A DNA stretch of 64,000 nt from assembly GCF_900187945.1 (NCBI RefSeq), contig NZ_FYEH01000001.1:124001-188000 (forward strand). Reading direction: 5' to 3'. Shown here one piece after another: positions 14,578-21,365 of this stretch. How positions within the stretch are numbered: position 1 is the stretch's first letter; each line of letters starts with the position of its first letter. The notes beneath the pieces were generated by a model. The model saw nothing but the letters and a program-made list of their open reading frames with translations. It did no database searches and was not told the origin of the DNA. Made by a program: the position numbers and the translations under genes. This stretch comes from Arboricoccus pini. Its GTDB lineage: Bacteria > Pseudomonadota > Alphaproteobacteria > Geminicoccales > Geminicoccaceae.

Positions 14578-15699
14578 CTAGTCGAGGAGGGCCGCGATCG
14601 TTTCCTCGCCGATGCCAAAGGCCGTCGAGGCGCCACACCCGGCCGTGACGATGACGATCCGCACACCGTCCATCGGCCTGTCGGTCAGCCGCCAGCTGTC
14701 CTTGGCCGAGGCATAGGTGCCAACCCAGCGTTCGCGCACGCTCCAGCCCTCAAGGTCGAGCACGGCCTCGAATTCGTCGAGAATCAGCCGATCGACCGCT
14801 TCCGGCGCGAAGGGATCCGGTGTCGGCGCGTAATGATGGCTGTCGCCGACGACGAGGCTGCCATCGGCCGACTGGGTGACGATCAGATGCACGCCATTGG
14901 CCCGCAAGGCGGCGAACTCGCGATCGAGGCGTGCCTTGAGCGGGGTCGCCTCCGGCAGGTCGGCATAGCCTAGATAGCGTCCGAGGCCCTGATCGGACAT
15001 GAGTGCTGTCTGGAAGCGGACGGGGCGCTGTGGCTCCAGACGCAGCATATGCAGCTTGCAGCGGGTGAGATTGTAGGCTTGCAGCCGATCGGCGAAGAGC
15101 GAGCTGAAATCGTCGCCCGGGCAGACGACGATGCGCGCGGCCGCGATCTCGCCGGCCGATGTCCAGAGCCTGCCGGTCTCAACCGCCTGCACGGCGGTGC
15201 GCCACTTGAAGTCGACGCCCAGCCGCTCGGCCAGGAAGGCGGCGAGGCGCGGGATGGCCTCGCGCGATTCCACGCGCACCTCGTGCGGGCTGAAGAGGGC
15301 TGCGCGCACGGCCTCGGGCCTAAGGGCGGGGATCATGGCCGCCGCCTCGGCATGGCCGATCCGGCGGCAGCCTTCGCCCATCGGACCGGCCAAGAACGCA
15401 TCCAGGACCGGGAGGCTTTCCTCCAGTCTTGCCGCGACGACGAGCCCTTCCTGCAGGATGGGGATGCGGGCCTGCGCGCAAAGCTCGCCCCAGACCCGAC
15501 GCGCGCGCCTTGCCATCTCCCAGCAATCGCCCGCTTCTTGGCCGGTGACCGTCACGAAACCGAAATTGCGTATTGAGGCGCCGTTTGCCTGCGCATCGCG
15601 CTCCAGGACGACGACCCGCTGACCCCGCCTCGCCGCCGCATAGGCGTGGGCGAGGCCGAGAATGCCGGCTCCGACGATCGCTACATCGTAGCTTTTCAT
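14578..15699 (-). CDS. FAD-dependent oxidoreductase, TIGR03364 (HpnW-proposed) type
   Basis: 373 residues from ATG 15699 (MKSYDVAIVGAG). An N-terminal Rossmann FAD motif GAGILGLAHA is followed by VVVLERD. A mid-protein sequence of the DAO/glycine-oxidase fold and a C-terminal GCGASTAFGIGEE give the second FAD contact. The run ASIRNFGFV near residue 45 is typical of TIGR03364 proteins, which in other genomes lie in phosphonate-utilisation clusters and oxidise secondary amines. Here the gene is divergent from a polyamine-type importer across 169 bases. The substrate is inferred only to be an amine. Confidence 0.8.
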   Translation of the reverse strand: MKSYDVAIVGAGILGLAHAYAAARRGQRVVVLERDAQANGASIRNFGFVTVTGQEAGDCWEMARRARRVWGELCAQARIPILQEGLVVAARLEESLPVLDAFLAGPMGEGCRRIGHAEAAAMIPALRPEAVRAALFSPHEVRVESREAIPRLAAFLAERLGVDFKWRTAVQAVETGRLWTSAGEIAAARIVVCPGDDFSSLFADRLQAYNLTRCKLHMLRLEPQRPVRFQTALMSDQGLGRYLGYADLPEATPLKARLDREFAALRANGVHLIVTQSADGSLVVGDSHHYAPTPDPFAPEAVDRLILDEFEAVLDLEGWSVRERWVGTYASAKDSWRLTDRPMDGVRIVIVTAGCGASTAFGIGEETIAALLD

Positions 15700-15868
15700 C
15701 GGCCTGTCCCGTCCCTCCGCGATCCGCACCACTTCCTGTCCTTCATGACGCCGACCGGGTCAAGCGGTAGGCCTGTGGTATCTTTCTTGCTCCACGGTCA
15801 TGGCGGATATAATCGATAAGAGCCCGGCTGCCGCGGGGGCTAAGGGAAGCGAAGGAGACGCGTTCAAG

Positions 15869-17047
15869 ATGTCGACCAACCAACCGTCGGCGGCCAGTGC
15901 CAGCCGGGTTTCCCCAAGCGCGGGTGCGGGGGCTTCGCGCCGCCAGGTCCTGAAGGGTGCGGCAGCGCTGGGCGCGGGCCTGTCGATGCCCGCGATCGTC
16001 AGCCCCGCGGCCCTTGCCTCGTCGGGCGAGATCAACATTCTGATGTGGTCGGACTATCTGCCGGACAGCTTCAAGGACGCGTTCCTCAAGAAGACCGGCA
16101 TCAAGATCAACCATACCGGCATCGGCTCCAACGAGGAGGTCATCAACAAGCTCAAGGCCGATGGCGGTCGCGGCTTCGACCTGGTCTCGCCCACCGGCGA
16201 CCGCGCTCTCCTCTATCAACCTTTGGGCGTGCTCCAGCCCTTCGACATGAAGCGCGTGCCGATCGATCACGTTAACCCGGCCATGGCCAAGATCGGCGAG
16301 AATGCCTGGAATTTCGACAAGAGCGGCACGCACTGGCTGCCCAACATGTGGGGCACCGAGGGCATCGCCTGGCGCATCGACCAGTTCAAGCCCGACGGCC
16401 AGTTCCCCTCGTTCTTCGATCCCTGGGATGACAAGAACGCCGGCAAGGCCATGGTCCGCGCCCAGTCCGGCCTCGTGGGTGCCGGGCTCGGCCTCGAACG
16501 GCTGGGCAAGCTGGCGCCGGGCTCGATGTGGGCCGCCTTCCAGGACCAGGACAAGATGAAGCAGGTCTGGAGCGAGGTGACGAAGTTCTGCATTTCCAAG
16601 AAGAAGAACATCAAGGTGCTCTGGAACGACGCCGACGCGCAGAAGAACGGGCTCTTGAACGAGGGTGTCATCGTTGCCCAGACATGGGACGGCCCGCCTC
16701 TGGCGCTAAAGACGCAGGGCGAGCCCGTCATGTACCGGGCGCCGGTCGAAGGTGCCCTGGCCTGGGTCGATGGCATGGCCATACCGAAGGAGGCCAAGAA
16801 CATCGACCAGATCTACGCCTTCATCGAGGCATCCTACGATTCGGCTCTGGCGGGCGAGGCGATCCAGCATCACGGCTATAATTCGCCCGTCCTCGGGGCG
16901 GAGAAATACGCCGGCGAGGCCTATGCCAAGAACTTCGCCGACGCCTATCCGGGTGACGCGCTCGCCAAGCTCAATCCCTGGCCGCCGGCCGCCCCCTGGT
17001 TCGCCGACGCGCGCACCGAGTTCGTCAACTCGTTCCTCTCCGCCTGA
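15869..17047 (+). CDS. PotD/PotF-like periplasmic substrate-binding protein, Tat-exported
   Basis: 392 residues from ATG 15869, preceded by GAAGGAG 10-11 bases away. The signal contains SRRQVLKGAAALGAG (about residue 25), a twin-arginine motif, then a hydrophobic stretch ending near SPAALA. The mature protein starts EINILMWSDYLPDSFKDAF, the typical opening of spermidine/putrescine-binding proteins. It continues with FDLVSPTGDRALLYQ and VIVAQTWDGPP, segments that line the ligand cleft. It feeds the importer encoded just downstream. A strong hairpin follows the stop, fitting higher expression of this gene. The ligand is likely cationic or amine-containing. Confidence 0.88.
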   Translation: MSTNQPSAASASRVSPSAGAGASRRQVLKGAAALGAGLSMPAIVSPAALASSGEINILMWSDYLPDSFKDAFLKKTGIKINHTGIGSNEEVINKLKADGGRGFDLVSPTGDRALLYQPLGVLQPFDMKRVPIDHVNPAMAKIGENAWNFDKSGTHWLPNMWGTEGIAWRIDQFKPDGQFPSFFDPWDDKNAGKAMVRAQSGLVGAGLGLERLGKLAPGSMWAAFQDQDKMKQVWSEVTKFCISKKKNIKVLWNDADAQKNGLLNEGVIVAQTWDGPPLALKTQGEPVMYRAPVEGALAWVDGMAIPKEAKNIDQIYAFIEASYDSALAGEAIQHHGYNSPVLGAEKYAGEAYAKNFADAYPGDALAKLNPWPPAAPWFADARTEFVNSFLSA

Positions 17048-17155: not shown

Positions 17156-18247
17156 ATGACAAAAACCGTCAATCTCGACCACGTCACCATCCGCTTCGGC
17201 TCCTATACCGCTGTCGACAATGTCGACCTCTCGATTGCTGGGGGCGAATTCTTCTCCTTTCTGGGCCCTTCAGGTTGTGGCAAGACCACGTTGCTCCGCT
17301 GTATCTCGGGCTTTGTCGAGCCGACGGCCGGCCGTGTCCTGATCGGCGGCAAGGACATGCGCGGGATCGGCCCCAACAAGCGCCCGACCGCGCTGATCTT
17401 CCAAAACCTCGCCCTATTTCCCCTGATGTCCGTGGCCGACAACATCGCCTTTCCCCTTGAGGTCAGGGGTGTATCGAAGCGCGATCGCCGCCGGCGTGCC
17501 GACCAGCTTCTGGAACTGATCGCCTTGGCCGGCCAGGGCGACAAGAAAGTCCAGGAGCTCTCCGGCGGCCAGCGCCAGCGTGTGGCGATCGCCCGAGCCC
17601 TAGCCGTCGAGCCCGATATCCTCCTGCTCGACGAGCCGCTCTCAGCCCTCGACCTCAAGCTCCGCCAGCACATGCGCACGGAGTTGCGCGCCATTCAAAA
17701 GCAGGTCGGACTGACCTTCATCTACATCACGCACGACCAGGGCGAGGCGCTCATCATGTCCGACCGCGTGGCCGTCATGAGCGCTGGCGTGATCGAGCAG
17801 ATCGATGTACCGGCTGCCATCTATGACCGGCCGCGCACGAGCTTTGTTGCCTCCTTCGTGGGCGAGACCAATGCGTTGCATGGCAAGGTCGGAGCGCAGG
17901 AAGATGACGTCGTCGCCCTCGACCTGCCATCCGGGCGGCGGGTCTTCGGCCTGGCCGGCGGTAATCGCCGTTACCGTCCAGGCGACGCGTGCACGATCTT
18001 CATCCGGCCCGAGCAGCTCAAGCTCGCTACCGCCGAGAGCTTTAATCGTCTTCCAGCCAGCGTCATCGACATCGAGTTCGAAGGCAGCACCCGTCATATC
18101 CGCCTGGAGGCGGAGGAGGCGCAGCTCCGTCTGACGCTCATGAACGAGGGCACGCCCGCCAGCCTCGCGCCGGGCGACCGACTGGAACTCAGCTTCGATC
18201 CCGAGATCGCATCGGTCCTGCCGAGCGGTCCGATGGCAAAGGCCTAG
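17156..18247 (+). CDS. PotA-like ABC transporter ATPase
   Basis: 363 residues. Walker A is GPSGCGKTT, the Q-loop lies in LIFQNLALFP, the signature is LSGGQRQRVAIARALA, Walker B is ILLLDEPLSALD and the H-loop is ITHDQGEAL. After about residue 240 a TOBE domain (FVGETNALHGKV and later IFIRPEQLKL) completes the layout of the spermidine/putrescine and iron-type importers. It energises uptake by the two permeases downstream, with 4 bases to the next start. Confidence 0.93.
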   Translation: MTKTVNLDHVTIRFGSYTAVDNVDLSIAGGEFFSFLGPSGCGKTTLLRCISGFVEPTAGRVLIGGKDMRGIGPNKRPTALIFQNLALFPLMSVADNIAFPLEVRGVSKRDRRRRADQLLELIALAGQGDKKVQELSGGQRQRVAIARALAVEPDILLLDEPLSALDLKLRQHMRTELRAIQKQVGLTFIYITHDQGEALIMSDRVAVMSAGVIEQIDVPAAIYDRPRTSFVASFVGETNALHGKVGAQEDDVVALDLPSGRRVFGLAGGNRRYRPGDACTIFIRPEQLKLATAESFNRLPASVIDIEFEGSTRHIRLEAEEAQLRLTLMNEGTPASLAPGDRLELSFDPEIASVLPSGPMAKA

Positions 18248-18251
18248 CTCG

Positions 18252-19166
18252 ATGGGCAAGCTCTTCGCCGGGGTCGCTCATCGGCATGGTCTAGGCGTGG
18301 CAATCTTCATCGGCAGTGCGATGACGCTCTGGCTCTTCGTCCTGGTCGTCCTGCCGCAGATCGCGATGGTCACCCAATCTTTCCGCTTCAACCTGCCTCC
18401 AGCCGAGCAGGGCGGCCCGGCGGACGTCTGGACCCTCTCAAACTATGCCTATTTCATTTTCGGCAACGGCGACGGCCTGAACAGCGTCGATCTCTGGGTG
18501 CTGGCGCGCACGATCGGCGTCGCCCTCTTCGTCACCATCATCGACCTTTGCATCTGCTATCCGATCGCCTTCATCCTGGCCCATTCGGCCAAGGGCATGT
18601 CGGCGCGGCTCATAGTCTTAGGACTGATCGTCCCCTTCTGGGTCAACGAGATCCTGCGCGCCTTCGCCTTTCGCATTCTCTTCGGCACGACCGGCATGAT
18701 CAACGAGACAGGCATGGCGCTGGGTCTTTGGGACGTTCCCTTCGATTTCATCCGCGCCAACGTCGCCCTCTATGCGGGCCTCGCCTATGCCTACATCCTC
18801 TTGATGATCTTCCCGATCTACAACGCCGTCGAGGCGCTCGACCACAACCAGATCGAAGCGGCACGCGACATGGGGGCTTCCTGGCTGCAGGTGCATCGTC
18901 GCGTGGTCCTTCCGTTCGCCAAAGGCGGCCTCGCCTCCGGCGCTACCATGGTCTTCATGCTGACGGCCGGTGCGCTGGCGGCACCGCAGATCCTGGGCGG
19001 TCCCTCGTCCTTGTGGTTCACGCAGCTCGTCTATCAATGGTTCAATGACGCGCTCAACTGGCCGCGCGGTTCCGCCTACGCGATCATCCTCCTCGTCGTC
19101 TGCATGGCGCTCGTCCTTTTGGGCATGCGGGTCTTCAAGGTGCCGTTCGGGGCGATCGGCAAATGA
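18252..19166 (+). CDS. PotB-like ABC transporter permease
   Basis: 304 residues with six predicted membrane segments. A periplasmic loop after the first holds NLPPAEQGGPADVWTLSNY. The ATPase-contacting EAA loop is EAARDMGASWLQVHRRVVLP. The sequence PFWVNEILRAFAFRILFG is typical of PotB-class subunits. It overlaps the second permease gene by 4 bases (ATGA), so the two are translationally coupled and should form the heterodimeric channel. Confidence 0.92.
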   Translation: MGKLFAGVAHRHGLGVAIFIGSAMTLWLFVLVVLPQIAMVTQSFRFNLPPAEQGGPADVWTLSNYAYFIFGNGDGLNSVDLWVLARTIGVALFVTIIDLCICYPIAFILAHSAKGMSARLIVLGLIVPFWVNEILRAFAFRILFGTTGMINETGMALGLWDVPFDFIRANVALYAGLAYAYILLMIFPIYNAVEALDHNQIEAARDMGASWLQVHRRVVLPFAKGGLASGATMVFMLTAGALAAPQILGGPSSLWFTQLVYQWFNDALNWPRGSAYAIILLVVCMALVLLGMRVFKVPFGAIGK

Positions 19167-20479
19167 ATGTCGGCAAAGGCCTGAATGTGCTGCTTACGGC
19201 ACTGTTCATCACCCTTTTCTTCGCCTTTCTCTTCGGCCCGCTGGTGATCATGGTGATCACCGCCTTCAACTCGTCCGTCTTTCCGAGGATCTCGCCCTGG
19301 GATTGCTTCACCACGGACTGGTTTCGGACATTGGCCGGCGACCGCATGCTGCTGAGCGGCCTGCTCAACACCATGATCATCGGCGCGGGCGTCATCATCG
19401 TGGCCGTGCCGGTCGGCCTTGCCGGCGCATTGGCGCTGGCGGAGGCTTCCGACCGCCTGCGCTCGATCCTCTATACGGTAATGATCGTGCCGATCCTGCT
19501 GCCGGGGGTCGTCATCGGCATCTCGACGATCATCTTCTGGAACTGGCTCTCTTATCGCCTGGGCGACCTGGAATTCCTGACCGACGGCATTTTCCTGTCG
19601 ATCTTGGGCCAGGTGACCTTCATCGCCGCCTACTCGATGCTGGTCTTCACAAGCCGGCTGCAGCGCTATGATTTCGGCCTCACCGAAGCCGCACTCGATC
19701 TTGGCGCCACGCCGGGCCAAGCCTTCCGAAAGGTACTCCTTCCCTTCCTGCGCCCCGCCATCGCGTCGGCGGCGGTGCTGGCCTTCCTGTCCTCGGCCGA
19801 GAACTACAATACCACGGCATTCACGATCGGGGCGCAAAGCACCTTCACGACCGTCCTGGCCTCGAAGGTGCGCTACGGCATCAACCCCTCGATCTCGGCC
19901 GTGGCGGTCATCATCATCGCCATCACGCTCGTCGCCGCCATCATCAACGAAGTCCATGGGCGACGCCGTCACGCTCTCCTCTCGGGTGGCCGTGCCCGCG
20001 CTCGCATCATGGGTAATCCCATTCTGTGCATCGCCGGCCATCCGGCCTTCGTCGCCCTTATCCTCCTGGTGGCGATCGCCGCTGCCGTCGTCGCCGGCGG
20101 ACGATACGATTCATCGGTCTGCACGGCGCGGATCCTGGAGGAAAAGCGTGCCTTGCAGGAAAAGTTGATGCAGCAGATGACCCCTGCCGCTCCCGCGTCA
20201 GAGACCACGCCCGCCCCACCCCCGCCGCCAACGAGCCCGCCCTCGACAGGCGGGGGACTTAATCCCTACAGCGGCGTGTTTGGCGGCGGCAGCCTCCCGG
20301 GGCCGGCCAACCCGGCGCCGCCCGCAACGCCGCCATCCCCAAGTGCCACGTCCTCGCCGTCGGCCGCTGGCCAGCCGACCAATCCCTATGCCAATGTGTT
20401 CTCGCCTGGGAATCTGCCAGGCGCGGCGGCCCCATCGTCACCGCCAGCGCCGCCGTCCACTTCGTCGCCACCTCCCTAG
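19163..20479 (+). CDS. PotC-like ABC permease with an extra membrane segment and Pro-rich tail
   Basis: 438 residues, against about 260-280 for normal PotC proteins. Residues 1-275 form a standard six-segment permease, with EAA loop EAALDLGATP. From about 283 the frame continues with another hydrophobic helix (AFVALILLVAIAAAVVAGG), a short helical stretch ILEEKRALQEKLMQQ, and about 95 residues rich in Pro, Ser, Ala and Gly. Within this tail NPYSGVFGGGSLPG and NPYANVFSPGNLPG are two copies of one motif. An ATG at 20009 (residue 283) could allow separate translation of the tail. If the extra helix spans, the tail is periplasmic. Confidence 0.85.
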   Translation: MNVGKGLNVLLTALFITLFFAFLFGPLVIMVITAFNSSVFPRISPWDCFTTDWFRTLAGDRMLLSGLLNTMIIGAGVIIVAVPVGLAGALALAEASDRLRSILYTVMIVPILLPGVVIGISTIIFWNWLSYRLGDLEFLTDGIFLSILGQVTFIAAYSMLVFTSRLQRYDFGLTEAALDLGATPGQAFRKVLLPFLRPAIASAAVLAFLSSAENYNTTAFTIGAQSTFTTVLASKVRYGINPSISAVAVIIIAITLVAAIINEVHGRRRHALLSGGRARARIMGNPILCIAGHPAFVALILLVAIAAAVVAGGRYDSSVCTARILEEKRALQEKLMQQMTPAAPASETTPAPPPPPTSPPSTGGGLNPYSGVFGGGSLPGPANPAPPATPPSPSATSSPSAAGQPTNPYANVFSPGNLPGAAAPSSPPAPPSTSSPPP

Positions 20480-20492
20480 AAGGGGCAGCCTC

Positions 20493-21365
20493 ATGAGCAG
20501 CATCGCCATTCGCCACGCCGAGATCGCGGTCAGGGATGGTCGTTTTCATGTGACCGAGGCGGGGGAGGGAGCGCCTTTGCTCCTCCTTCATGGATGGCCG
20601 GAATTCTGGCTCACCTGGGAACCGGTCATGCAGAGGCTGGGTGACCGGTTCCGGGTGATCGCCCCCGACCTGCGGGGATTTGGCGCCAGCAGCAAGCCGG
20701 CCGGTCCCTGGGGTGCGGCCGAGCATGCGGCTGACATGTTGGCTCTTCTGGAGGCCATGGGCATCGAGCGGCCGGGTATCGTTGGCCACGATGTCGGCGG
20801 CGCCGTGATGCTGCCGCTGGCGAGGCTCGCGCCCGAGCGGTTCAACGGGCTGTTCTTTTTCGGCTTCTTTCATCCGGGCATCGGCGCGCGCGCCGGCACC
20901 CCCGATCGGCTGAACGAGATCTGGTATCAATCCTTTCATCAGATGCCCATGGCGCCGGCCCTTGTCGGTGCCTCGCGTGAGTCCTGTCGCCTCTATATCG
21001 GCCATTTTCTCAGGCACTGGGCCCATCGCAAGGATGCCTTTGACGACGTCCTCGAGGCTTTCGTCGACAATTACATGGAGCCGGGCAACCTCGCGGGCGG
21101 CTTTGCCTATTATCAGGCGGCGCATGCGAGCCGAATCGCCGCCATGCGAGGCGACGGCCCGGTTCTGCCGCCGATCACGCTGCCTACTTGCGTGCGCTGG
21201 GCCATGAACGACCCGATTTTCCCTTATGCCTGGACCGATCGCCTGGGCGAGATCTTTACCGACCTCGATCTGGCCCCGATCGCCGACGTGGGCCATTTCG
21301 CGCATCGCGAAAATCCCGACGAGGCGGCCCGGCTGATCGCCGCCTTCTTCCAGGACCGCGCCTGA
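20493..21365 (+). CDS. alpha/beta hydrolase, epoxide hydrolase / dehalogenase type
   Basis: 290 residues from ATG 20493, preceded by AGAAGGGGCAGCCTC. LLLLHGWPEFWLTW carries the HGxP oxyanion motif of epoxide hydrolases. The nucleophile is an Asp in VGHDVGGAV (about residue 100) rather than Ser, and the general-base His is in VGHFAH (about 270). An Asp nucleophile points to epoxides or halo-acids rather than esters. It follows the permease by 13 bases and may be read with the transporter operon, so a metabolic link is possible. It converges on the dipeptidase gene. Confidence 0.87.
   Translation: MSSIAIRHAEIAVRDGRFHVTEAGEGAPLLLLHGWPEFWLTWEPVMQRLGDRFRVIAPDLRGFGASSKPAGPWGAAEHAADMLALLEAMGIERPGIVGHDVGGAVMLPLARLAPERFNGLFFFGFFHPGIGARAGTPDRLNEIWYQSFHQMPMAPALVGASRESCRLYIGHFLRHWAHRKDAFDDVLEAFVDNYMEPGNLAGGFAYYQAAHASRIAAMRGDGPVLPPITLPTCVRWAMNDPIFPYAWTDRLGEIFTDLDLAPIADVGHFAHRENPDEAARLIAAFFQDRA

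Follow-up and report, generated by a model that had tools for sequence, protein, structure and literature searches.

A conserved seventh helix and repeat-bearing tail in PotC-like permeases of the Alphaproteobacteria

The last gene of a four-gene importer set in the window (the whole stretch of 64,000 nucleotides that was analysed) encodes a PotC-like permease of a type I ABC importer. Its product continues past the permease core into a seventh hydrophobic helix and a long tail with a repeated motif. On comparison of related sequences, this extra helix and motif tail are an old, conserved alphaproteobacterial design and not an accident. The best reading of the tail, though it stands somewhat short of an even chance, is that it serves to tether, reversibly, the binding protein encoded in the same gene set. 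The extension defines a clade within a well-studied permease family, and no description of it was found in the open-access literature searched. Permeases that carry it (tailed permeases) are now annotated merely as ABC transporter permease.

The importer and its permease core

The permease core (residues 1-268; 19163..19966, + strand) has six helices. At residues 175-194 it carries EAALDLGATPGQAFRKVLLP, the EAA...G coupling motif of the cytoplasmic loop, whose core letters are invariant in alignment A1. A Pfam search of the whole permease gave BPD_transp_1 (PF00528) as the sole domain (residues 86-268; 52.4 bits against a curated cut-off of 26.4), and a profile built from seven relatives matched E. 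coli PotC (8y5f chain C) with E 2.5e-31. The protein is named PotC-like and not PotC because its scores lie far under the NCBIfam equivalog cut-offs for PotC (120.8 against 326 bits) and PotI (108.3 against 476 bits). Asp108 and Asp198 are two acidic residues with which E. coli PotC binds spermidine (PMC11414716). The first is replaced by Gly and the second by Glu in all 53 full-length tailed permeases and in all 41 tail-less ones.

Upstream, on the same strand, lie genes for a substrate-binding protein with a Tat-type signal and a PotD/PotF-like fold (15800..17047; Pfam SBP_bac_8 and TAT_signal), a PotA-like ATPase subunit (17156..18247; ABC_tran and TOBE_2) and a PotB-like partner permease (18252..19166; BPD_transp_1). 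The ATPase, second permease and binding protein by which the operon of a type I ABC importer permease is recognized are thus all present, and polyamine-binding proteins in the PDB match the operon's binding protein with E 1.7e-22. Order (binding protein-PotA-PotB-PotC) and strand are common to 16 of 16 tailed loci. The four genes are also found in five of five tail-less loci, with the binding protein on the opposite strand in L127.

A FAD-dependent oxidoreductase gene (TIGR03364; 437.7 bits against a cut-off of 285.1) lies divergently upstream of the importer (14578-15732, - strand). An alpha/beta hydrolase gene (20493-21365, + strand) starts 14 bases past the permease stop and is probably co-transcribed. 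Near the 22 other loci searched there was no match to either of these two genes.

The E. coli spermidine importer PotD-PotABC (PMC11414716; PDB 8y5f) shares with this system the PotC core, the gene set and the three periplasmic loops P1-P3; its PotC has six helices and lacks helix 7, the cysteine pair and the tail.

The extension and its conservation

The permease gene (19163-20479, + strand) is an open frame of 438 codons with no internal stop. A basic loop (residues 263-292, net charge +5; 19949..20038) connects helix 6 with the seventh hydrophobic helix (about residues 294-313; 20042..20101), for which the best 19-residue Kyte-Doolittle window scores 2.73 (1.62-3.07 across 54 tailed sequences). 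There follow a charged helical stretch (residues 321-340; 20123..20182) and a Pro/Ser/Ala/Gly-rich tail (residues 344-438; 20192..20476), in which these four residues make up 75% of 95 positions. Open frame, hydropathy and composition all agree with the preliminary description, which had seen a permease with a seventh helix and a tail of about 95 residues, rich in these four, reaching residue 438. Neither AlphaFold2 model was usable (pLDDT 48.9 from a single sequence and 38.8 from three sequences). The charged stretch was the best-scored part of the two otherwise poor models, helix 294-313 appeared in a low-confidence model, and the tail had a pLDDT below 50 in both. A Pfam search with residues 276-438 alone gave a best E of 0.045, under the curated cut-off, and one with four tails at E ≤ 1 gave nothing above cut-off. 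The tail had no relatives in the PDB (best E 0.13).

Two copies of a repeat motif stand in the tail, NPYSGVFGGGSLPG at residues 367-380 (20261..20302, + strand) and NPYANVFSPGNLPG at residues 407-420 (20381..20422, + strand). A degenerate DNA pattern for the first part of NPYxxVFxxGxLPG finds only these two sites in the 64 kb, and none in 100 shuffles. Both of the NPY units recognized earlier are therefore present, but the NPY unit itself is a local form of a wider motif, approximately [FY]GxVFxPxxL, which is kept across tailed permeases, mostly in two copies, while the linkers drift (uncharged Pro/Ser/Ala in the window, charged in other members). Among 54 tailed sequences, 44 have two copies, five have one, three have three and two have none; the motif-free sequences are L097, with deviating repeats, and L151, with a frameshift-like tail end. 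Strict copies number 96, against a mean of 0.14 and a maximum of two in 500 shuffles.

The relatives were collected as 146 proteins, of which 95 were kept after identical cores and matches below 150 bits had been dropped: 54 tailed (the window's included, and one with an incomplete start) and 41 tail-less. The tailed architecture thus occurs in 54 distinct sequences with nine family codes. Helix 7, Cys48 with Cys320 and the repeat motif define the tailed PotC-like subfamily as used here, and the window's permease has all of them. Subject to the E-value limits and match ends on which such counts depend, tailed permeases were found in 14 of 385 genomes of the class (Alphaproteobacteria), in four of 31 in the window's family, and in 25 of 244, 14 of 25 and three of four genomes of three orders. 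Zavarzinia marina and Z. aquatilis are named relatives among the matches. Across the phylum, six of 398 genomes had one, all six in the window's class, and the four matches from other classes stop before helix 7. A search of viral contigs gave no relative.

In a tree of the permease core (94 rows, trait columns excluded) a single branch separates the 53 full-length tailed rows from all the others (support 87/23; 86% of 200 bootstrap trees). The clade support is modest, and a single origin of the tail is likely from this topology. The sister group consists of 12 tail-less permeases, none of the tail-less rows falls inside the tailed clade, and L057, at the base of the tailed clade, is a long branch. 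Because the tail probably arose once, all correlations with it rest on one event. One genome, G505, has two tailed permeases (L093 and G505:C27:73458-74729), and genus code g57 (L053, L152; L046, L141-L149) includes genomes with the tailed importer as well as genomes with a tail-less sister importer.

In four groups of close relatives pN is well under pS in helix 7, in the cysteine-plus-helix part and in the motifs, no ratio being given where pS was saturated. The dN/dS of the loop plus helix 7 is 0.05, 0.05, 0.14 and 0.42, the last and weakest case coming from three Zavarzinia. The pN of motifs is below that of linkers in four of four groups (0.083 against 0.177, 0.056 against 0.191, 0.224 against 0.393 and 0.087 against 0.237). 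These patterns mark helix 7 and the tail as being under purifying selection.

An artefact or recent fusion, in which a stop was lost, a sequencing error intervened or two genes were run together, is scarcely credible for this frame. It is contradicted by the same architecture in the 54 sequences and by the selection on helix 7 and the tail. When the 385 genomes of the class were searched with tail profile A5, each of the 13 strong matches (E ≤ 4.9e-26) fell within the permease frame; eight of the 13 genomes had supplied A5 rows and five were independent. The profile missed G331, tailed by eye, and its weak matches elsewhere in six other genomes (E 0.0014-0.0072) were taken as chance. Tail orthologues as separate genes, the finding that would have spoken for a fusion, are therefore not seen among the strong matches. 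The internal ATG at 20009, put forward as a possible start of a separate downstream protein, is residue 283, and its column is Met in one of 53 tailed sequences, the window's own only. Purifying selection together with this non-conserved ATG therefore excludes both the loss of a stop and a separate gene. What might be cited for an artefact is L151 alone (L151:1351-2610, - strand), a tailed permease without the motif at its tail end and frameshift-like near the end; nothing of the kind is seen for the window.

The cysteine pair and the side of the tail

Cys48, in periplasmic loop P1 (codon 19304..19306, + strand), and Cys320, just past helix 7 (codon 20120..20122, + strand), are both present in every one of the 53 full-length tailed rows. 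The Cys48 column aligns with a Gly of E. coli PotC loop P1 and is Cys in none of 41 tail-less permeases, which have 35 Gly, two Ala, two Ser and two Glu. Within core positions 1-268, Cys48 alone is both invariant among tailed rows and absent from all tail-less ones, and other Cys columns have no such link with the tail. Cys320 is missing from the tail-less relatives because the whole segment is missing, these proteins ending earlier. As the clade probably arose once, the pair represents one gain kept throughout and not many independent gains.

From the co-occurrence of Cys320 with a cysteine in a periplasmic loop we infer that the two probably form a disulfide, which would pin helix 7 to the permease and place the tail in the periplasm. 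Between helices 6 and 7, 53 of 54 tailed sequences have a loop of net positive charge, and in the remaining one the net charge is zero. The periplasmic position proposed earlier for the tail, on the condition that helix 7 spans the membrane, becomes likely on these two grounds. If helix 7 did not cross, the tail would be cytoplasmic and could bind the ATPase or a regulator, as the charged helix past helix 7, rich in Arg, Lys and Glu in many members, might suggest. This is improbable given the cysteine pair and the positive loop, and PotA has no tail-specific position among 160 (see below).

The idea that Cys320 is a lipoprotein-type cysteine was dropped on inspection by eye, as it follows helix 7 only after 5-11 residues, most of them polar.

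Candidate partners of the motif

A motif search in 12 tailed genomes placed 21 of 21 matches with E < 0.05 within the tailed permease. At E ≤ 10 there were 37 matches; of the 16 weaker ones, one was in the permease and 15 were elsewhere (E 0.17-6.8), and these 15 look like chance. The search was not exhaustive, some known copies being missed, for example in G070. A motif with a single host protein suggests a dedicated partner, and the importer's own soluble binding protein is the most likely one. The tail would then act as a flexible periplasmic line, usually with two copies of the motif, held at the permease by helix 7. Weak, reversible binding of the motif to the binding protein would raise the local concentration of the latter at the permease.

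The distance between Cys320 and the motifs bears on what they could reach. The first motif core lies a median of 57 residues past Cys320, part of them helical, and the last motif a median of 87; in L057 a first core match only 12 residues past Cys320 is probably chance. By general polymer lengths, so short a reach to the first motif would point to the permease, or to a binding protein docked there, more than to the outer membrane, and the link to the porin layer considered in the preliminary description is accordingly unlikely. An envelope anchor, in which the tail attaches the importer to peptidoglycan or to some other component of the periplasm or outer membrane, carries a rather small likelihood. 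In its favour, Pro/Ala-rich spacers are common among envelope-spanning proteins, and the last motif lies at the median of 87 residues past Cys320. Against it, the first motif is too near for the outer membrane on the same polymer estimate, the tail has no Pfam family or PDB relative, and no other protein in the 12 genomes matched the motif at E < 0.05.

Changes in the other subunits were compared between 26 tailed systems and the 12 tail-less sisters, a position being called tail-specific if conserved (90%) in tailed systems and found in at most one of 12 sisters. Three of 20 stretches were excluded (two repeats of genomes already used and one short contig), as was L129, which is tail-less and falls outside the sister group. 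The binding protein has 14 tail-specific positions out of 170, the PotC core eight out of 106, PotB one out of 128 and PotA none out of 160 (Fisher's test, binding protein versus PotB 0.003, versus PotA 0.0001). This contrast fits a change of the binding protein along with the tail. Of the subunits, however, the binding protein differs most between the two groups (tailed versus sister identity 0.46, compared with 0.55 for PotB and 0.59 for PotA), and its extra positions may stem from that divergence or from a different substrate; several of them adjoin pocket-like motifs (WGTEG, GYNSP). In one sister binding protein, L209, most of these columns are gaps.

The motifs might alternatively bind the periplasmic face of PotB/PotC, in the vestibule or on P1-P3, and so either compete with the binding protein for docking or set the time at which it docks. 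Such self-docking is unlikely, though it deserves some weight: the motif occurs in this permease only (E < 0.05, 12 genomes), the PotC core has its eight tail-specific positions, and the cysteine pair would tie helix 7 to loop P1. Against it, PotB has just one such position. The longer P2 loop was first considered a part of the tail system, but it also occurs, at 14-17 residues, in the 12 tail-less sisters and hence is not linked to the tail.

The tether for the binding protein is favoured by the cysteine pair, the conservation of the motif and its exclusivity in the 12 genomes, the operon linkage in 16 of 16 loci and the co-change of the binding protein. The probability left over from this reading and the four alternatives goes to other, unnamed partners. 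A more specific version, in which a disulfide-locked helix 7 displays a disordered motif array for reversible capture of the soluble binding protein from the periplasm, would be a new importer build; it is possible but doubtful. Were it true, the importer would combine the efficiency of a fused domain with a binding protein that is still exchangeable.

The tether would be a non-covalent counterpart of importers with permease-fused binding domains. In lactococcal GlnPQ and OpuA (OpuA: PMC11065425), the permease chain itself keeps binding domains at the permease by covalent fusion, whereas the window's permease has a short-motif tail and its binding protein is encoded separately. The mollicute PotC/binding-protein fusion NF043073 (NCBIfam; model of 1021 aa) is likewise a PotC extended C-terminally by an extracytoplasmic part, but there, by the name of the model, the binding protein itself is fused; the window's permease scores 76.5 against its cut-off of 1250. 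How a soluble binding protein locates its permease is an active question for ABC importers; with a conserved tail and a motif seen only in this permease, and with hosts among the tractable relatives of Ruegeria, tethering would be directly testable.

The substrate of the importer is plausibly an amine. A regulator-like GntR-aminotransferase gene, with a product of MocR type, is the nearest upstream ORF and divergent in six of 15 tailed loci (14 of the 15 scanned), namely L110, L112, L113, L116, L117 and L122; in the window this place is taken by the FAD-dependent oxidoreductase. A Paroceanicella plasmid with a possibly tailed permease has annotations for a PLP-dependent aminotransferase and tyramine oxidase. 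In Ruegeria pomeroyi, potFGHI, possibly a tailed system, is linked to polyamines (PMC10130141).
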